64,000 nucleotides of DNA from Marinobacter fonticola (GTDB lineage: Bacteria > Pseudomonadota > Gammaproteobacteria > Pseudomonadales > Oleiphilaceae), in the NCBI RefSeq assembly GCF_008122265.1, contig NZ_CP043042.1, positions 124,001 through 188,000 of the forward strand. Direction: 5' to 3'. This document shows positions 3,642-12,942 of the stretch, in pieces (position 1 is the first letter of the stretch; every line of letters begins with the position of its first letter). A program made the translations under genes and the position numbers. The notes beneath the pieces were generated by a model. It did not search any database. It saw nothing but the letters and a program-made list of their open reading frames with translations, and had not been told where the DNA came from.

Positions 3642-3970
3642 ACCGGTTTGGGGTTACGGCCTTTCTCGTGGTGGTCCTGGTGCTTGGAGGGTGCCAGGCC
3701 AGTGGCGTCAGCGAACAGCAGCGTATCGGCGAAATGGTGCAGGCTGTCTACGCCGCGATAGCATCGCCCCAGGACCCGGCGTCACTGACAACCATCGCCC
3801 GCTACGGCACGGACACGCGCTATTACGTGATGATCCGCGGCTGGCTGGTGCAGGAACTGCGGGGTGTTGAGAGCCAGCTTGAGGCGAGCAAGGATCCCCA
3901 GTTGAAGGCGAAGTTCCGGCAGAAGGCGGATTTCCTGCGCACAGCCATCCGGCGGATCGATCTGGAGTAA
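3638..3970 (+). CDS. Small lipoprotein, unknown function
   Basis: The product is 110 residues with a lipoprotein signal (FLVVVLVLGGC, lipobox LGGC). The mature part is helical, with a charged C-terminal half (VESQLEASKDPQLKAKFRQK). The ATG overlaps the stop of the kinase-like gene by ATGA, so the two are probably translationally coupled. It converges with the sigma-54 activator gene; the gap is 12 bases. No known family was recognised. Confidence 0.75.
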   Translation: MNRFGVTAFLVVVLVLGGCQASGVSEQQRIGEMVQAVYAAIASPQDPASLTTIARYGTDTRYYVMIRGWLVQELRGVESQLEASKDPQLKAKFRQKADFLRTAIRRIDLE

Positions 3971-3982
3971 ATCGTGAGTGCA

Positions 3983-5398
3983 CTAGACCTCGTATTTGGC
4001 CAATTTCTCATACAGCGCCGAACGCGAAATGCCCAGGATATCCGCCGCTCGCGAGCGATTGCCCCGGCTGGCGGCCAGGGCGGCATTGATGGCCTGAGCC
4101 TCGGCGTCCGCCATCACCTGCGCCAGCGGTCTCGGGGGCAGGGGCTCTTCCACATTGACCGGCCGGCGCACGCTACCGGGTAGCACCCGGAAGATGGCTT
4201 CGGCATCCAGCACGCCGGACTCGTCGCCCATGGTCAGCGCCCGCTCCAGGACATTGCGCAACTCGCGGATATTACCCGGCCAGTCGTAACCGCATAGAGC
4301 CGAAACTGCGGTATCGGTAATCTCGCCGCGTAATTTGAGACTGTTGCAGATGCTCTCCAGCAGCGCTTCGCACAACACGCCCATGTCCATAAGTCGATCC
4401 CGCAGCGGCGGGATGGGGATCTCCAGCACGTTCAACCGGTAATACAGATCGGAGCGGAAACTGCCGTCCGCCACCATGGCTTCGAGATTGCGGCTGGTGG
4501 CGGCAATCACCCGCACGTCCACGCTCTGCACCTTGTTTGAGCCTAGTGGCTCCACTTCTTTTTCCTGCAGGGCGCGCAACAATTTCGCCTGCAGCGGCAG
4601 GGGCATATCCCCCACCTCGTCGAGGAAGAGCGTGCCGCCGTCGGCAAGCTGGAACTTGCCGTCCCGGCTGCGGCGGTCGGCGCCGGTATAGGCGCCCGGG
4701 GCGACCCCGAAGAACTCCGCTTCCAACAGGTTTTCCGGCACCGCTGCCACGTTAACGCCGACGAACGGACGCTCTGTCCGTTCCGATATGGCGTGGATCG
4801 CCTGGGCCAGCACCTCCTTGCCAGTGCCGGTTTCGCCCAAAAGTAATACCGGCATGTCCCGGCCGGCAGCCAGCCGGGCACGGCGTTTGGCTTCCAGGGC
4901 CGCCGGACTGGCACCGACAAAATCCGCCAGGCTATAGCGGGTGCCCCGGGTACGTTTGGCGAGAGCCTTGCGCGCGGCGAGCAAATCCTGGTGTAGCCGC
5001 CGGTATTTGCTCACCAGCGGCGTTAACGGCTGCAGGTCGTCGTAGAGCACGAGGGCGATAGCGCCGTTGGCGGCTCCGGCCTCGTCGAACAGGGGCAAGC
5101 GGGTGACCACCAGCTGTTGCTTCCGGTATTCCATGATATCCAGCAGGATCGGCGTGCCCGTCTTCACCACCTCCGGCATGCGGGTCTCCGGAATGACGGC
5201 CTGAATCGGCTTGCCCACCACGCTGTCGGGTGAGCTGATGCCCAACAAGTTAAGGTAGCTGGCGTTGATCCAGGTCACCCGGGACTGGCGGTCCACGGCA
5301 ATAGCGCCGGCGCTGGCCTGCTCGAACATGGGAAACAGCGCGGGGATCAACTCCCGGGTGAATCCGGTCTTGGGCGGATAGTCGAAGGGTTGTTTCAT
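3983..5398 (-). CDS. Sigma-54-dependent activator, PAS-AAA-Fis type
   Basis: The protein is 471 residues. An N-terminal PAS sensor (about 20-125) is followed by the sigma-54 AAA+ domain: Walker A GETGTGKE (188-195), the RpoN-contacting loop GAYTGA (235-240, the tyrosine variant of GAFTGA) and Walker B GGTLFLDE (254-261). The C-terminus is a Fis-type helix-turn-helix (NRSRAADILGISRSALYEKL). There is no receiver domain, so the PAS domain probably senses a ligand. It lies downstream of the PHB depolymerase, oligomer hydrolase and porin genes on the same strand, and a -24/-12 promoter lies before the depolymerase. It is probably the activator of that locus. Confidence 0.92.
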   Translation of the reverse strand: MKQPFDYPPKTGFTRELIPALFPMFEQASAGAIAVDRQSRVTWINASYLNLLGISSPDSVVGKPIQAVIPETRMPEVVKTGTPILLDIMEYRKQQLVVTRLPLFDEAGAANGAIALVLYDDLQPLTPLVSKYRRLHQDLLAARKALAKRTRGTRYSLADFVGASPAALEAKRRARLAAGRDMPVLLLGETGTGKEVLAQAIHAISERTERPFVGVNVAAVPENLLEAEFFGVAPGAYTGADRRSRDGKFQLADGGTLFLDEVGDMPLPLQAKLLRALQEKEVEPLGSNKVQSVDVRVIAATSRNLEAMVADGSFRSDLYYRLNVLEIPIPPLRDRLMDMGVLCEALLESICNSLKLRGEITDTAVSALCGYDWPGNIRELRNVLERALTMGDESGVLDAEAIFRVLPGSVRRPVNVEEPLPPRPLAQVMADAEAQAINAALAASRGNRSRAADILGISRSALYEKLAKYEV

Positions 5399-5523
5399 GG
5401 CGATTCGGCCTAACGACCGACCTTTGTTGTTGTTCTGCGGTTCTGATAGCGCTTACCCGCCGGGCGAACGTTATTGAAGTATAGGGTGTTGCCCCAGGCC
5501 GGCCAACTTCTCTGTTATCGGCC

Positions 5524-5549
5524 AAAAAAGGCCCCGGCATAGCCGGGGC
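5524..5549 (-). terminator. Rho-independent terminator after the porin gene
   Basis: A perfect 8-bp stem (GCCCCGGC/GCCGGGGC, 5531-5538 with 5542-5549) with a three-base loop is followed on the minus strand by CTTTTTT. It lies about 30 bases after the porin stop, between porin and activator, so the activator may depend on its own promoter or on readthrough. Confidence 0.85.
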
Positions 5550-5581
5550 AAAAGAAGAAAGACAGAGGTTTGCTTCTGACG

Positions 5582-6733
5582 TTAGAAGCTGTACTGCGCC
5601 ATGCCTTGAATGCGCACGGCATCGCCGTCGTCACCGGAAACGGTCTCGCGGCTATGCAGGCCGGCCTCGATACCGTAGGTGACGCCGCCAATCGGCGACC
5701 AGATGTAATTGGCGTAGATGCTGGAGAACTGCTCATTCTGGCTGGAGAGGTCCATGCCCGCATCTTCGGCATCGTCCCAATCCGCCTGCGCCAGGCCATA
5801 GCCCAGGTTGAAGCTGCCCGGTCCCATGTCGGCGCTGAGGCCCAGGGTGCCGCCGTAGGCGGTGACGGCTTCCACATCGCCGGAAGCCGAATCGTAGTAG
5901 GCCGGTGCGCCCGGGTTGCCGTACAGATAGCCACCGATACCGTCACCGTAGACCATCGAGCCCTGGATGCTCAGGCCCTCGGACAGGGCGATTTTGGCGG
6001 ACAGGCCCGCGCCGTAGCCGAAGGTACTCTCCTCATCGTCGTTGCCGGCATTGTAGATGCTGAGTTGGCGTGCGACGCCGGAGACTGCAAGGCTGACCGC
6101 GCCCGCTGTCATCTTGTACTGCGCGGTCAGGTCCGGCAGGTTGTTTTCGATGGTGGCATCCGGTGCCGGGTTGCCGGCAATCGGCAGCAGCGCGGCGGAA
6201 CCGCCCAGGGTACCCGGATCTTCCAGCGCGACGGATAGCCCGCCGGTGGTGTAGCGCAGCTGGGTCTGGCGTGCGATAACGGTCTGGCCGACCTGGCCGA
6301 GGAAGTCGATGGTTGGGGTGGTGCCCAGGAAGTTACCGAAGTTACTCCAGGTCTGGCCGGCCAGGAGGCCGTTCCATTCACCGTAGGCATGACGCAGACG
6401 GAAACTGCCGCCGCCGTTGCCGTAGAAGTCCCCTTCGATCACGGTCTTGACCTCACCCATTGCCGTATCGGTGGCGGTTTTTACGCCCAGCCGGCTTTGA
6501 ATGGCCTGTAGGTTGGTGTGGCCATCCGGGCCGTCGGCGCCGTCCAGGCGGATCTTGCTGTGGGTGACCAGCGGGCCCAAATCTGCATCGACGTCGTAGA
6601 TAAAGTCGAGCTTGCCGTAACCGTAGAGTTGAGCTTTGGTGTCGGCGACGTTGAGTTCAAGAGCACTCGCACTGCTAGCGACAGCTAGCGCCAGGGCGGA
6701 AATAGAGCCGCGGAAGAGCTTGTTGTTATACAT
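5582..6733 (-). CDS. DcaP-like outer-membrane porin
   Basis: The 383-residue protein has a signal peptide ending in ASSASA, then alternating beta-strand sequence (AQLYGYGKLDFIYD, SRLGVKTATDT, VKTVIEGDFYG, FRLRHAYGEWNGLLAGQTWSNF) and the terminal aromatic residue (QYSF) of outer-membrane barrels. The first strands match the DcaP-like trimeric porins that take up organic acids. The ATG at 6733 has AAAGGA eight bases upstream; the TTG just before it is not needed. Its place in the PHB locus suggests uptake of hydroxybutyrate or short oligomers, which is inference. Confidence 0.85.
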   Translation of the reverse strand: MYNNKLFRGSISALALAVASSASALELNVADTKAQLYGYGKLDFIYDVDADLGPLVTHSKIRLDGADGPDGHTNLQAIQSRLGVKTATDTAMGEVKTVIEGDFYGNGGGSFRLRHAYGEWNGLLAGQTWSNFGNFLGTTPTIDFLGQVGQTVIARQTQLRYTTGGLSVALEDPGTLGGSAALLPIAGNPAPDATIENNLPDLTAQYKMTAGAVSLAVSGVARQLSIYNAGNDDEESTFGYGAGLSAKIALSEGLSIQGSMVYGDGIGGYLYGNPGAPAYYDSASGDVEAVTAYGGTLGLSADMGPGSFNLGYGLAQADWDDAEDAGMDLSSQNEQFSSIYANYIWSPIGGVTYGIEAGLHSRETVSGDDGDAVRIQGMAQYSF

Positions 6734-6900
6734 CAATGAGTTCCTTTGTGTTAGCAGTCGTTTTTATGGGCCTGATGGACTTTGTTCAGGCAAGCCGGGA
6801 GCGCCCGCCGACGCTCAAGCAGCGGTAAGTAACGTCGCAAAGCGACAGAATGGATGCGGCGGCACCCCGGACCCTGGCGGGACCGGAAATCGGTTATGGC

Positions 6901-9057
6901 CTAGTCGGGAATGCGCACCTGGTTCTCCTCGAACAGGATGCGATCCGCAGCGGCCGGTTCGGCCTGGATCGGCGGCACGTTGGCTTCGGTCAGAGCCGGC
7001 GCGCCGGTCCCTCTTGGCGTGGTGCGCACCACCTGGCTCGCCGGCAGCGGATCGCCGTTCTTGAGGTGGGCATAGACCAGATCCAGCGCCTGGAAGTAGT
7101 AGCGGTGCAGCGGCACGTAGAGCGCATCAAAGCCCGGGAAAGCATTGAACGCGTCCAGGTGGTGAGCGTTGAGCACTTCGTAGTAGCGCAGGCTGCTGTC
7201 GCTGCCCTCCACGGTCTGGTTCAGGCCGAAGTAGGGCCGTGAGGTGTGGTTAATGGGCAGGATGGCGTCAGCCCGGCCGGTGACGAAGACCGTCGGCTTA
7301 CCCTGCAGGTTGCCGTTAGCGCGGATGGTTTCGATGCCGCTGGCGATGGCTTTAGCTTGCTCGGCCTGTTCGCTGGGCAGCACGCCGCCGTTCACCGCGT
7401 CCGTACCCTGGGCGAGGCCGCGCAGGCAAAGCAGCGCATCCAGACCGTGATCCTGCACGCCGCTGCTGGGCGAGGTGCTCAGTTTCAGGCTGGTTGGAAC
7501 GCCGGTGGCGCCGTCGTACACCTGATTGATACCGCCGGTGGGCGGAATGCCGTTGCTGGTGGAGAACAAGACTTCCTCGGCCGCTTCCGCCAAGGGTGTC
7601 ACGGCGCCGGTGGAGCCGTCGGTCGCCGCCAGGCTGAGCTCACAGAGCCGGTCTTCGACGCCGAACCGGCCGTAGGCGTTGGCGTAGGTCATGGAGATGC
7701 TTTGGGCGACGGATGCCCCGAAGTGACTGGGCGCCACCAGGTTCTGTTCGGGCTGAACGCCGAAGTCTTCTTCCAGAATGCGCTGGGCGTCGGCGGCCCG
7801 GGCATCCACATCGGCGCCGGTAATCAGGCCCTTGTTGAACAGCACGGTACAGATATTCTCATCCACCGCGAGGTCGTTAAGCACCGCGTTGAATGGCGCG
7901 GTGTCCTTGACGCCCGGCGCCAGGTTGGCGCAGCCCTGGTAAACCCCGATGGCGGTGGTGTAGTCCAGCAGGCTGCGGCTGTGATCGGTGATCACCGGGC
8001 CACTGCCCTGGCGAATAGTGAAGCGGGTGTCCACGGTCGGATTGACGTTGGGCTCGGACACGGCAACGCCATCGATCAGGCCCTTCTCGTCCTGCTCTGC
8101 GGCACGGACGGAAGCACCACCGCCGTTGGACACCGAGGAAGCGATGACCAGCGTGTTGTCCGGCGTGACCGTGACCAGACGTTCGCCTTCGTCAGTCTCT
8201 TCGCCGAAGCGCTCGTTGAGGATGTAGAAACCGAATTCGATCGACTTGAGTACGTACTGGCCCCAATCGGCCTCCGGGTTGGTCTTGGAGTGCGCGTGCT
8301 TGAAGGCGAAGCGGTCCGGCCAGTGGGTATTGAAGGTGGCCCGTTCGCCGGCCTCCAGATCCGCTTCGAACTGGACATCGGCGCTGTCGTCAGTGGTCAG
8401 GCGCCCGTGGATATCCTGGGCGGCGCCGGTTTCCATATTGAATGACCCGGTGCCGGATCCCTTGTCGGTGTAAACCACGGCGCAGCCTTTGTTCAGACCC
8501 CATTCCCCGGCGGTGCCGATGGCGCCATAGATGCCGCGGGACCCGGACGAAGGCGCAGTCACCATACAGGATGAGGCTGGATCGTAGCTGTCCGGAATCT
8601 GCACCATAACGGTGACCGGGACTTCGGTGTCATCGTCGATGCGGATATAGGCCAGATACTCGTCGCCCGGAATCTTGCCCTCGGCGCCGTCAGCCCCCAC
8701 TTGCGGGCCGAACAGGTTGCCGTAACCGCCGCCGGCGCTGGTATCCACCAGAGCGCGGTAGTTGTTGTAGATGGCCAAGGTGCGCAGTTCTTCCGCCGTG
8801 GGATTGAGCGTATCCGCAGGCGCTGGTGCGGTGCCGCTGGCCAGGCCGCTGGCGCCGAGGCCCGCCGTTAGCAGGTCGTTGCTGGCGCCATCGTAACGGG
8901 CATGCTGCACATCGCCGCTGACGGAAGCGGGACGCTCGTTGGTAACCCCGTCGGGACCGTCAGGGCTGTCATCGTCATCGTCGTTGCAGGCGGTGAGTCC
9001 CAGGGATAGCGAACCGATCAATGTGCAGAGCAGCAGTTTTCGGTAAGTCCGGTGCAT
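6901..9057 (-). CDS. D-(-)-3-hydroxybutyrate oligomer hydrolase, lipoprotein form
   Basis: The product is 718 residues, the usual size of 3-hydroxybutyrate oligomer hydrolases. The signal peptide ends in a lipobox (LTAC, Cys24) followed by five aspartates, so it is predicted to be lipid-anchored. A lipase-box-like SVSNGG (308-313, Ser310 the likely nucleophile) fits the variant box of this family. It hydrolyses soluble oligomers to the monomer. It lies between the depolymerase and the porin, all on one strand. The ATG at 9057 has GAGGA eight bases upstream; a start further up would put a hydrophilic tail before the signal peptide. Confidence 0.87.
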
Positions 9058-9088
9058 GAGGCGTTTCCTCGATATTGTTGTTGTTAAA

Positions 9089-9117
9089 CCCGCATCCGGC
9101 ACAACGCCGGATGCGGG
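9089..9117 (-). other. Strong intercistronic stem-loop
   Basis: A perfect 12-bp inverted repeat (CCCGCATCCGGC, 9089-9100, with 9106-9117) has a five-base loop, in the 81-base gap between depolymerase stop and hydrolase start. On the minus strand it is followed by only TTTAAC, so it is a weak terminator at most. It could lower downstream expression or protect the 3' end of the depolymerase message. Confidence 0.7.
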
Positions 9118-9138
9118 GAAGTCGTTTGTTTTTTGGGG

Positions 9139-10857
9139 TTAGGGGCACTGGCCTGCGTGGAAGACGCCGGGGCTGGATTCACGGACCCAGGCATAGCTGC
9201 CGGAGATCTGGCCCAGGGCATCGTCGCCACCCACGGTGTAGTAACCCATCTGGTAGTAGGCGCGACTGGCGGAGTCATGTTGCAGGTTGGTGCCGTACCA
9301 GTCCTGGCAGGTGTGGCCGTCGCCGCCATCGCCACCATCGCCACCCCCACCACCTGCGCGGCAGGCTTCCGGTTCGGCGGCATACCAGGTGCCGGGCTCG
9401 CCCTGATGCAGGGTAACCGAGGACCAGGTATCGAACGATCCGCCGATGTCCTGGCGGTCCGTCAGCGACAGCGCCCGTAGGTCGGAGTTGCCGCCGGCAA
9501 CGGCGCGGTTGGCCGAAATGTGGGCGTTGGGCGAAGCCGTCGCGGTCTCGCAGGTAACGTCCGGTGCGCTGGGGTCGAAGACCGTGACCGTGCGGGTCCG
9601 GTTAACGCTGTTGCCGTCGGAGTCCGTCGCCTTGTAGGTACAGGTGTAATCGCCCTCGGTGCTGGTATCCACGCTTGAGCAATCGGCGTCGACGCTCAAT
9701 GAGCCGTCTTCCGGATCGGTGGCTGTGGCGCCGGGATCGGTAAAGCTGTTGCCCAGTTCAACTTCCAGCGGGTTGTCGCCCTGTAGGGTCAGAGAAGGAG
9801 AGCCATCGCTACCGCCGGAACCGTTACGGGTATGACGATTGAAAAAGTCCCAGATAATGTCCGGATAGCTGGGGCCGGCACGAACGGCCCAGGCGCCCTC
9901 GCTACCATCCTCGCCGCCGACCCAGTAGTGGCCGTGGTTGGTGTCGGTGCTGTTGGCGGTGTTGAGTGGGCCGTCGTAGAACACGGTCTCGACGATGGAC
10001 CGGCCGTTGCCGGTGCCATAGCGGGTATGCATGCAGCTGTAGTTATTCTGGTAGTACGGGCTGCACGCGGCCTGGCTTTGCTGGGCTTCCGCCGGTGAGT
10101 CGTGAGCGGCGTCGCCGAAGACCCGCAGATGGGCATCGCGGATGTTACGGCCGGCGGGCTGCACGACGGTACAGTCGTTATTGTTCTGCAACACCATCAT
10201 CGGAATGGGGTAGGTGTCGTCCAGTTCCGCTTCCATATCGTTGGCCACCTGACTCACGCTGTGGAAGGTGGCGTTGCCCGGGCATTGCCCGGACAGCGAT
10301 ACCGAAGCGGCGTCTTCACCGTAGGGCAAGCCCGAGGCGGAGGCAGCAGCGGCCCAGTACTCGTTATGAGCAACGGCGGCGACGACGGTCATAGCGCCAC
10401 CGGAGGACAGGCCGGTGATGTAGCGGCGGTTCGGGTCCACGCTGTACTCGGACTCGACGGTCTGGGCAACGCGCACCAGATCTTCCGGCTCACCGGAGCC
10501 TTCATGCTGATGCTGGTCGAACCAGAAACCCCAGCAATTCTGGTTGCGTAGTCCGTCGTAGCTGGTAATGAAGGGCGTCACCAGGATGAAGCCATACTGA
10601 TCGGCAGCGGCTTGCAGGCCCCATTCGTTTAGCGTGTTGGCCTGGGTCTGACTACAGCCGTGCAGGGCCATCACCATGGGGGCTGGCGTGGTGAGGTTGT
10701 CTGGAATATAGACCTGATATTGGCGGTCCCGGGATGCGGCATGAGTGCCTGCCGGAAGCGTGTCGGACGTCACGGTGCCCGCCTGAACGGGCGTTACGGC
10801 GGTGACAAGGGAAATGGCGGCCGTCGCGGCGACCGCGAGTAAACCTCGGATCGTCAT
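9139..10857 (-). CDS. phaZ: Secreted poly(3-hydroxybutyrate) depolymerase
   Basis: The 572-residue protein has a signal peptide ending VTPVQA. The esterase domain (about 30-345) carries the oxyanion segment LHGCSQ (65-70), the lipase box GLSSGG (149-154, Ser151), a likely acid in NNNDCT (Asp228) and the histidine segment TNHGHYW. An Ig-like DUF5011 domain follows (about 354-427), then a cysteine-containing domain, a glycine/aspartate linker (502-514) and a last segment rich in W and Y, probably for polymer binding. It degrades extracellular PHB. The ATG at 10857 has AAGGAGA just upstream. It is the first gene of the PHB locus. Confidence 0.92.
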   Translation of the reverse strand: MTIRGLLAVAATAAISLVTAVTPVQAGTVTSDTLPAGTHAASRDRQYQVYIPDNLTTPAPMVMALHGCSQTQANTLNEWGLQAAADQYGFILVTPFITSYDGLRNQNCWGFWFDQHQHEGSGEPEDLVRVAQTVESEYSVDPNRRYITGLSSGGAMTVVAAVAHNEYWAAAASASGLPYGEDAASVSLSGQCPGNATFHSVSQVANDMEAELDDTYPIPMMVLQNNNDCTVVQPAGRNIRDAHLRVFGDAAHDSPAEAQQSQAACSPYYQNNYSCMHTRYGTGNGRSIVETVFYDGPLNTANSTDTNHGHYWVGGEDGSEGAWAVRAGPSYPDIIWDFFNRHTRNGSGGSDGSPSLTLQGDNPLEVELGNSFTDPGATATDPEDGSLSVDADCSSVDTSTEGDYTCTYKATDSDGNSVNRTRTVTVFDPSAPDVTCETATASPNAHISANRAVAGGNSDLRALSLTDRQDIGGSFDTWSSVTLHQGEPGTWYAAEPEACRAGGGGGDGGDGGDGHTCQDWYGTNLQHDSASRAYYQMGYYTVGGDDALGQISGSYAWVRESSPGVFHAGQCP

Positions 10858-10927
10858 AGCATTCTCCTTCCTGTCTTGTTTTTGTAGGAATGGGGCCCGG
10901 GGCAAAACCCGCGGCAGGAAGGCTTAT

Positions 10928-10942
10928 GCTTATGTTGTGCCA
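10928..10942 (-). promoter_or_regulatory. Probable sigma-54 (-24/-12) promoter of the PHB depolymerase
   Basis: The minus strand reads TGGCAC, five bases, then AAGC, followed by A. The -24 element is a perfect match to TGGCAC, and the invariant GG and GC are ten bases apart as RpoN requires; the -12 element departs from TTGC in its first two bases. It ends 71 bases before the start codon. A sigma-54 activator gene sits at the end of the same locus. Confidence 0.65.
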
Positions 10943-11003
10943 AGTATAAAAAGGTAATTAATACAGCTATTTAGAAATTTCACTGGGAGGCGGGTCAAAA
11001 AGT

Positions 11004-11122
11004 ATCCGGAAATCCGGACAGCGCTGCCGCGCCGGTTTGCGGCTCAAGGGCTGGTTTGGCGTGAGATTTGGCGGGGATTGAGAGTGTCCGGTGTTTTAGA
11101 CAGTGTATTGTATTCCGGACAC
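11004..11122 (-). promoter_or_regulatory. Cluster of TCCGG motifs, candidate activator binding sites
   Basis: ATCCGGA occurs twice in tandem (11004-11010 and 11012-11018). Further upstream a perfect 8-bp inverted repeat, GTGTCCGG (11084-11091) with CCGGACAC (11115-11122), is spaced about three helical turns centre to centre. All lie 60-180 bases upstream of the -24/-12 promoter, where enhancer sites for sigma-54 activators usually are. Confidence 0.5.
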
Positions 11123-11256: not shown

Positions 11257-12636
11257 TTAACGAGACGGTCCGTAACGACTTGGTCGTACAAGGCCGACCG
11301 CGATGCTCACCGCAGCCGACGCCACGAGTGCCCCCACAAACGGCGCCAGTGTCGGCACCCCACCGGGGAAGCTGGCCACCTGTAGTCCCATTACGAAGCT
11401 ACCCGTTTCGACCCAGCCCGGCAGCACCGCGCCCATCAGGCCGGCAGCAGCGCCGCAGATCGCGGCTTCGCGGGACATTCGCGTCCAAAGGCCCATCAAT
11501 ACGGGAATCACCGCCGTTGCACAAAGCAGGTCGGCGACCAGGAACAGCCGGAGTACCGAATAACCCTGTAATGCGATAACCACGACCGGCACCATCAGGC
11601 CCACGGTAATCCAGCGCGCCGCACTCAGGGAAAGCCCGGCCTTTTCCGTCACCGCTAACGACGCGAGGCCGTTCTGCAGCGTGTCGACGGACGAAGCCAC
11701 CAACGTCAGCGCGAGGACGAGAGCGACCAGTGCCAGCCAATCCGGCGCTTGGCTGAGCAGTGCGAAGAAGGGGATCGGCGGCGAGCCAAGATCGGTACCG
11801 CTCATGGCGGCGGTAATGCCCAGGCCGCCGACAAGGGCTACCACCGCAATGGTGATTACGCCGCCGAGTACGGCGCCCTGGCCCAGGGCGGTGCCATCCC
11901 GGGCAGCCCAGACCCGTTGCCAGTAACCCTGGTGAAACAAGTTGGCGGCGGTGACGGCGAGAACCAGCGTCAGCGCGACGGCCAGCGCGCTGCCCACCGG
12001 AATCGAGGGCATTGGCGAACGTTCCACCTGACTGGGCAGTCCCGGTAAGGCGACGGCGCCGACGACGAGAATGAGCGCAACCAATAGCAAGGCTTGCCAG
12101 CGGTCAGTTACCAGGCTGGCCCGTAGCCCGCCCCAGGCGGTATAGACCAGCGTGGCAACAGCGACGCCAAGAACCGCCACGTTGCCGTCGAGATCGGTTA
12201 GCAGACCGGTGATGGCACCCACCGCCGTAAGTTCCGCGGTCAGAAAGCAGAGCATATAAAGCACGGAAATCAGCGATACCCAGCGCCGCATCCCGGTGCC
12301 ATAGCAGGTTTGGGCAAACTCCCCGATGCTGCGGCCCTCGGGGAGATGACGGCGTATCGCCGGGCCGCAGAAGGCAAACACGATGAATGGCAGGGCGGCA
12401 CCGAGCGCGTAACCCGCCAAGCCGATGGGCCCGACCATGGCGCCGACTTCAGGCGGTGCGAACAGGATCCAGCCGCCCATGCCGGATGCAAGAAAGGAGA
12501 GTCCCAGGGCCCGGGCACCCTGGGAGTTACGGGCGGTGACATAGTCGTCGAGGCCGCCGTCGGCCACGCGGGCGCGCACGCCCAGCCAGGTAAATACAAG
12601 CAATGCAGCCGCCACGGCCGCTACGGTATAGAACAT
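11257..12636 (-). CDS. Sodium:solute symporter, predicted thiamine or precursor transporter
   Basis: The protein is 459 residues with about twelve hydrophobic segments and SSS-family features (LASGMGGWILFAPPEVGAM near the start; YTAWGGLRASLVTDRWQ; VASSVDTLQNGLASL). The family couples solute import to sodium. The leader carries a TPP riboswitch directly before the start codon, so the substrate is probably thiamine or a pyrimidine or thiazole precursor, as proposed for ThiV-type symporters in THI-element surveys; that assignment is inference from regulation. The ATG at 12636 has GGAGGAAG (12643-12650) at good spacing. It is monocistronic here. Confidence 0.85.
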   Translation of the reverse strand: MFYTVAAVAAALLVFTWLGVRARVADGGLDDYVTARNSQGARALGLSFLASGMGGWILFAPPEVGAMVGPIGLAGYALGAALPFIVFAFCGPAIRRHLPEGRSIGEFAQTCYGTGMRRWVSLISVLYMLCFLTAELTAVGAITGLLTDLDGNVAVLGVAVATLVYTAWGGLRASLVTDRWQALLLVALILVVGAVALPGLPSQVERSPMPSIPVGSALAVALTLVLAVTAANLFHQGYWQRVWAARDGTALGQGAVLGGVITIAVVALVGGLGITAAMSGTDLGSPPIPFFALLSQAPDWLALVALVLALTLVASSVDTLQNGLASLAVTEKAGLSLSAARWITVGLMVPVVVIALQGYSVLRLFLVADLLCATAVIPVLMGLWTRMSREAAICGAAAGLMGAVLPGWVETGSFVMGLQVASFPGGVPTLAPFVGALVASAAVSIAVGLVRPSRYGPSR

Positions 12637-12650
12637 GTCGCGCTTCCTCC

Positions 12651-12748
12651 GCCGGTGCTAACCGGATCAGGTTCCAGGGTTTCATCGAGTGACTGTAAAA
12701 ACAGCGGCGCTCGATACCTTCTCAGTCCGATTTACGGACTCCCCTGGC
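12651..12748 (-). promoter_or_regulatory. TPP riboswitch (THI element)
   Basis: The minus strand holds the conserved blocks of the TPP aptamer in order: GCCAGGGGAGTCC with a hairpin, CTGAGA (12725-12720), a variable arm, AACCCTGGAACCTGATCC (around 12681-12664) and GGTTAGCACCGGCG. The last stem strand abuts the ribosome site GGAGGAAG, so ligand binding would hide the site and stop translation. No terminator is seen between aptamer and start codon, which favours translational control. Confidence 0.95.
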
Positions 12749-12942
12749 GACGAATTGATGGAATTGGTGATTAGATCAGGACGGTCCATACTGACACAGA
12801 TCCGGCTTTGTCGCGACTGATGTCCATTCGCGTATGATCGGTCTGATTGACGATGGCGTATCCGAAGCGGATGAACGACGGACTTTGCGGACAACGAATG
12901 ACGTAGCGGATAAAAGGACATTCAGGCAGGGAGACTCAAACC

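Follow-up and report, generated by a model that had tools for sequence, protein, structure and literature searches.

A candidate HbcR-type sigma-54 regulon extended to extracellular poly(3-hydroxybutyrate) in Marinobacter fonticola

What switches on a secreted poly(3-hydroxybutyrate) (PHB) depolymerase, and which regulator answers to the products of its action? The question is raised by a locus of Marinobacter fonticola that lies in a window of 64,000 nucleotides (bases 124001-188000 of the 4.54-Mb genome, a single contig). An earlier note on this DNA had placed genes for a PHB depolymerase, an oligomer hydrolase, a DcaP-like porin and a sigma-54 activator on one strand; profile searches confirm that all four share the minus strand and belong to the families named:

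9139..10857, minus strand: PHB depolymerase with a type 1 catalytic domain and an Ig-like domain (family models; signal peptide by eye)
6901..9057, minus strand: 3-hydroxybutyrate (3HB)-oligomer hydrolase, probable lipoprotein (PF10605, 9.3e-259)
5582..6733, minus strand: DcaP-family porin (PF19577, 2.1e-20; relative of 6eus)
3983..5398, minus strand: HbcR-like sigma-54 activator with PAS, AAA+ (GAYTGA) and Fis-type helix-turn-helix (HTH) domains

The depolymerase is a type 1 extracellular short-chain polyhydroxyalkanoate depolymerase (NF050058, 209.3 bits; cut-off 150), and the hydrolase scores 860.8 bits against PF10605 (cut-off 27).

In our reading, an HbcR-type regulon has been extended to extracellular PHB, possibly with replacement of the activator. 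We give a probability of about 0.7 to the proposal that an HbcR-type activator drives both a sigma-54 PHB operon and an operon of tripartite ATP-independent periplasmic (TRAP) transporter and coenzyme A (CoA)-transferase genes, the copy encoded in the locus probably being the one that acts. Depolymerase and hydrolase, with the porin added by read-through, would form one operon that depends in vivo on the sigma-54 promoter at 10926-10943. The PAS-AAA-Fis activator would bind three copies of TGTCCGG-N4-CCGGACA at 11003-11121, the signal being 3HB or a related compound, with the PAS domain as the probable sensor, and its GAYTGA loop would contact the sigma-54 polymerase, upon which the promoter opens. 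This activator would also induce the TRAP/CoA-transferase operon located at 2.33 Mb; with one activator for both operons, polymer attack, oligomer cleavage, uptake and activation would therefore be induced together.

The control region and its conservation

The TGGCAC-N5-AAGC element that had been proposed upstream of the depolymerase is found exactly where claimed (10942-10928). The TCCGG elements further upstream are likewise present, but their grouping had been misread: they are the halves of three TGTCC-N8-GGACA dyads, copies of one palindrome with the consensus TGTCCGG-N4-CCGGACA. The combination GTGTCCGG/CCGGACAC, previously taken for a single inverted repeat, in fact consists of the outer halves of two neighbouring dyads. 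The control region, in which UAS denotes an upstream activating sequence, comprises the following elements:

11104..11121, minus strand: UAS1, first palindrome of the tandem pair (TGTCCGGAATACAATACA; dyad scan, pair conserved)
11085..11102, minus strand: UAS2, second palindrome of the tandem pair at 19-bp pitch (TGTCTAAAACACCGGACA; dyad scan, pair conserved)
11003..11020, minus strand: UAS3, promoter-proximal palindrome (TGTCCGGATTTCCGGATA; dyad scan, genome-wide UAS3 plus -24 pattern)
10926..10943, minus strand: sigma-54 type -24/-12 promoter (TTGGCACAACATAAGCAT; sequence match and conservation)
10876..10883, minus strand: AANAANAA motif adjoining the ribosome-binding site of the depolymerase (leader comparison)

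The palindromes sit about 60-180 bp upstream of the -24/-12 element, and the usual -12 spacing presumably places the transcript start near 10916. When the window's promoter region was shuffled 3000 times with its dinucleotides preserved, no tandem dyad with three or fewer mismatches arose.

The three-palindrome pattern emerged from a comparison of six genomes of the genus with 26 loci of a second group (g13, two named Marinobacter). For scoring, the tandem pair was defined as TGTCC-N8-GGACA repeated at 19-bp pitch, with a total of no more than five mismatches, and the family-type -24/-12 element by a score of at least 12. The set comprised 32 PHB-class promoters (6 of this genus, 24 from g13 genomes, L064 and L065); left out were L059 and L060, which are more distant, L063, which is the genome of L034, L066/L067 (Skermanella) and L068. 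Of these promoters, 30/32 carry the tandem pair ahead of the PHB operon vs 4/1920 dinucleotide shuffles, and the -24/-12 element is found in 31/32 vs 10/1920, counts that are not independent because these sequences also supplied the -24/-12 pattern and the loci share ancestry. All six genus genomes retain the promoter design. The consensus of 88 sites is TGTCCGGAWWTCCGGACA, with the inner GG and CC conserved at 60-83% despite being unused in site picking.

A search of 73 genomes for the tandem pair returned 34 matches, and the reversed control 7. Judged by their coordinates, 14 of these 34 fall at a PHB promoter or immediately follow an activator homolog, and we take the remaining 20 to be chance. 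A scan for single palindromes (214 matches per strand, 100 in the reversed control) was not used because known exact sites are missing from its listing. In 30 promoters the spacing between UAS2 and UAS3 falls into groups at 71-74, 82-86 and 93, apart from the values 69, 78 and 80, and the mean vector is 0.71-0.72 at periods of 10.5-11, 0.69 at 11.5 and 0.67 at 10; this is a weak sign that the sites may be helically phased, the promoter sequences being related. Of the earlier suggestion that TCCGG pairs precede the same gene order in relatives, the promoter half holds, whereas the gene order is not kept in the sister genomes.

Several observations weigh against a sigma-54 promoter of fixed design, beyond the shared ancestry of the counts. 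The tandem pair is absent from L058, and L062, which has a broken gene and a misplaced scored stretch, scores neither the pair nor the -24/-12 element. The more distant hydrolases (L059, L060, L066, L067) lack the full design. The window's -12 reads AAGC rather than TTGC, and its generic -24/-12 score is reached by 277 of 3000 shuffles, so that the element is unconvincing by itself and conservation carries the case. Given that conservation, the argument that the -24/-12 before the depolymerase would be a real promoter element is convincing.

The leader offers a possible second layer of control. The AANAANAA motif lies near the ribosome-binding site in 30/30 PHB-class leaders vs 93/494 background starts; the leaders are those of 30 of the 32 promoters, L061 and L062 (broken genes) having been left out, and in L040, L044 and L055 the motif is present with the caught ATG inside it and not at the start codon. 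It is also found before the hydrolase (9075-9085), the activator gene (5424-5434) and in the 10 TRAP leaders listed; none precedes the porin. In its sequence and in its closeness to the start codon it resembles the Hfq/Crc catabolite-activity (CA) motif of Pseudomonas, as given in the part of PMC5429807 consulted. In P. putida, many genes with a CA motif are unresponsive to overexpression of CrcY/CrcZ, according to the section of PMC12533007 used here. The motif may be an Hfq/Crc repression site or a translation enhancer.

The activator and its targets

The candidate reader of these sites matches PAS models, Sigma54_activat (PF00158, 1.7e-66) and HTH_8 (PF02954, 1.5e-14), the Fis-type HTH. The GAYTGA loop noted before is present in the activator and recurs in most of the 55 homologs listed, with GAFTGA in the rest seen. 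By the family tests, an AAA+ domain with a GAFTGA-type loop and a Fis-type HTH identify the protein as a sigma-54 activator, and an rpoN gene is present in the genome.

Homologs at 74-79% identity occur in g13, and others, by name, in Alloalcanivorax/Alcanivorax and Allohahella; the f20 homologs are 51-54% identical. At a threshold of E 1e-100 the five other genus genomes gave only a relative at 50-51%, located between an acetoacetate-CoA ligase gene and a TRAP operon. Similar neighbours are the rule: 37 of the 38 loci that hold an activator homolog also carry a TRAP, 3HB-dehydrogenase-like, acetoacetate-CoA ligase or CoA-transferase gene, L218 being the exception. NCBIfam models confirm the 3HB dehydrogenase in L050 and L209 and the acetoacetate-CoA ligase in L050, L167 and L209. 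The other short-chain dehydrogenase/reductase (SDR) matches near activator homologs reach 32-34% and may be other enzymes; L209 passes the 3HB-dehydrogenase models. All 26 g13-type loci have the activator homolog directly after the hydrolase. By neighbour genes and domains, the protein fits an HbcR-like activator of 3HB catabolism. In Pseudomonas, the catabolism of (R)-3HB is under the RpoN activator HbcR, which is itself activated by (R)-3HB, as stated in the portion of PMC10482368 consulted, and the PAS domain of HbcR spans residues 17-123 in the corresponding portion of PMC8694187.

A strict pattern of UAS3 plus -24 has three sites in this genome, namely the PHB promoter, the TRAP/CoA-transferase operon at 2.33 Mb and a site at 3.37 Mb. 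The six genomes together yield 11 matches, of which five fall at PHB promoters, two at TRAP promoters and four elsewhere; the reversed control yields one. The TRAP promoter of this genome consists of a pair of palindromes, one exact and one weaker, a third palindrome that is again exact, and TTGGCACAGGGTTTGT, and that of the sister G004 shows the same design. Among g13-type TRAP promoters that follow the activator, three palindromes are found in 34/35 and a -24/-12-like element in 35/35, counts taken with no shuffle control. Two g13 loci read over their full length show the gene order hydrolase, activator, TRAP genes, 3HB dehydrogenase, acetoacetate-CoA ligase, which nine more repeat without a hydrolase match. 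The third candidate target is:

L237 5924-6165, near 3.373 Mb: two palindromes and a -24-like element, before an ABC-type binding protein gene (PF04392)

No relative of this binding protein was found at E 1e-30 in the five other genus genomes.

The locus had been described as complete, but the genes for TRAP uptake, acetoacetate-CoA ligase and CoA-transferase lie instead at 2.33 Mb, behind matching sites. What survives of the proposed RpoN catabolic regulon is therefore its nature, since comparison supports an RpoN-type promoter, activator sites and a 3HB-linked kind of activator; its confinement to a single locus does not. Through the shared sites, polymer attack, oligomer cleavage, uptake and activation would be linked over two places in this genome. 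Because the 3HB-dehydrogenase model TIGR01963 has no match at E 1e-60 in any of the six genus genomes (G000-G005), 3HB may be oxidized by a different enzyme or by way of a CoA-first route; the best SDR match of this genome fits FabG.

A probable inserted block and a native activator with a premature stop

The porin belongs to PF19577 (73.6 bits; cut-off 27) and matches the solved structure 6eus, a DcaP-like protein of the same family, over nearly its whole length (query residues 30-384, E 2e-16), a relationship so distant that the substrate of 6eus is not transferable to it. Since it follows the hydrolase directly, on the same strand and with no same-strand terminator-like site between them, it is probably carried on the hydrolase transcript and dependent on read-through; neither a palindrome nor a -24/-12 element of its own was found in the stretch scanned. 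A scan of 16 kb for terminator-like sites gave 24 vs 11.4 expected, among them:

5531..5549, minus strand: terminator-like hairpin with a T run, between porin and activator gene (sequence scan)

Relatives of the porin in G004 (53%) and G041 (51%) adjoin TRAP transporters in other clusters, which also hold, by eye, dehydratase- and CoA-transferase-like genes. The idea that the porin is a candidate for hydroxybutyrate uptake is plausible from these carboxylate-uptake neighbours of two relatives at 51-53%. The same neighbours, together with the DcaP family and the fact that the porin lacks its own palindrome, -24/-12 element and AANAANAA motif, would equally suit a general carboxylate porin that is unrelated to PHB use and was carried along with the activator. 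The position directly after the hydrolase and the transcript probably shared with it argue for a link to PHB, and we rate the unrelated porin as a serious contender, a little short of an even chance.

Porin and activator together form a block that is absent from this position in 5/5 sister genomes:

3971..6900, minus strand: inserted block, porin plus activator

In each sister the order is hydrolase, short gap and a small open reading frame ending at 3970. In two of them (G002 and G005; L033, L036) the depolymerase was not found here and the promoter stands directly before the hydrolase; the G005 hydrolase appears as two adjoining matches. The nearest relatives of the porin are two at 88-89%, one at 67% and one assigned to Hahellaceae at 64%; across the order, 4 of 390 genomes, this one included, hold a match at E 1e-90, and no donor was seen.

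Our preferred reading of this history is an import of porin and activator, with takeover of the regulon. Both genes would have been gained in one insertion, apparently a recent one; the imported HbcR-type activator would read the palindrome of the resident, the resident would have decayed, and the regulon would have passed to a half-identical homolog with its enhancer sites unchanged. We hold this scenario tentatively, at somewhat under even odds. The block might instead be ancestral and cleanly lost in the sisters, with no activator replacement, as the g13 relatives place the activator beside the hydrolase just as the window does, and the window activator is not nested in the main g13 clade (89/84), outside of which two g13-type rows likewise fall. 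A clean loss has to account for 5/5 sister gaps that hold no remnant of porin or activator. The activator groups most closely with a metagenomic protein (93%) and with Allohahella (support 88/96), and the nearest named relative of the porin is the one in Hahellaceae, which also argues for import; ancestry followed by loss is possible, and to us rather doubtful.

The genome also encodes a native activator, 51% identical to that of the window (L167 8682-10079, near 2.332 Mb), beside the TRAP operon. It contains one in-frame stop, which would cost the protein its DNA-binding end and some of the AAA+ domain, whereas no stop was seen in its counterparts in the five sister genomes. The recognition-helix region is near-identical in the two activators (GISRSALYEK and GISRASLYEK). 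Because the native protein is cut by this premature stop, the acting protein here is probably the locus-encoded one. If the stop were a sequencing error or were bypassed, the native activator could drive the promoter, with the inserted one redundant or serving the porin; in 5/5 sisters this promoter design goes with an activator of the native kind alone, and the remainder of the broken frame is well kept. We consider this unlikely, given the removal of the DNA-binding end and the better local linkage of the inserted activator, whose g13 homologs adjoin the hydrolase in 26/26 loci.

Some facts count against the locus-encoded, HbcR-like activator that we favour. The stop in the native gene rests on one assembly. 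The sisters keep the sites without the window activator, and the sites therefore cannot prove binding by it. The likeness to HbcR is one of domains and neighbours, and the genus TRAP promoters carry GT in place of the -12 GC.

Palindromes are typical of repressor sites too and binding by an activator is our interpretation, but a conserved -24/-12 element follows the sites, which accompany the activator gene from locus to locus, and sigma-70-like sites are at chance (4 found vs 4.0 expected) with none at the depolymerase promoter, so that an ordinary repressor or a non-HbcR activator, with the operon read from a sigma-70 promoter, is very improbable. At that chance level, the sigma-70-like site at 5478-5506, ahead of the activator gene, carries no weight.

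Neighbouring features and known systems

Judged by eye from leader and signal sequence, three of the start codons would move: the depolymerase from TTG 10905 to ATG 10857, the hydrolase from GTG 9102 to ATG 9057, which gives a lipobox-like LTAC, and the porin from TTG 6736 to ATG 6733. Four plasmid records match the hydrolase, at 39-42% identity. The gap between depolymerase and hydrolase contains one further feature:

9089..9117, minus strand: 12-bp hairpin (folding z -5.05)

A strong hairpin of differing sequence occurs in the same gap of the sisters (3/3 gaps folded). The upstream sodium/solute symporter (11257-12636) was considered as a regulon member and ruled out by a thiamine pyrophosphate (TPP) riboswitch at the gene start (RF00059, window 12626-12755, minus strand; 54.9 bits vs a cut-off of 54.3); with this riboswitch at its head, the gene is probably thiamine-related and outside the PHB regulon.

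If the proposed regulon is real, a defined sigma-54 switch whose enhancer code can be read governs the digestion of a biodegradable plastic, and the PHB-degrading regulons of marine Marinobacter would be findable by sequence and testable by short mutations. Sisters with the same sites and different activators would offer a direct test case for regulator replacement. In the literature consulted we saw no secreted PHB depolymerase described as being under a sigma-54 activator with enhancer sites, which is weak evidence of novelty as most subscription journals lie outside the coverage.

Enhancers of the NifA/NtrC type are tandem palindromes with TGT...ACA ends upstream of a -24/-12 promoter, and the window shares this arrangement, with tandem palindromes before a -24/-12 and the same ends. 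It differs in that each site is an 18-bp dyad with inner GG/CC, that three sites stand in a fixed order, and that the pitch of the pair is 19 or 20 bp. With HbcR (PA2005), the window protein shares a PAS-AAA-Fis architecture that has no receiver domain, and its homologs adjoin 3HB/acetoacetate genes; by contrast, the promoter in the window serves the genes of a secreted depolymerase and an oligomer hydrolase.

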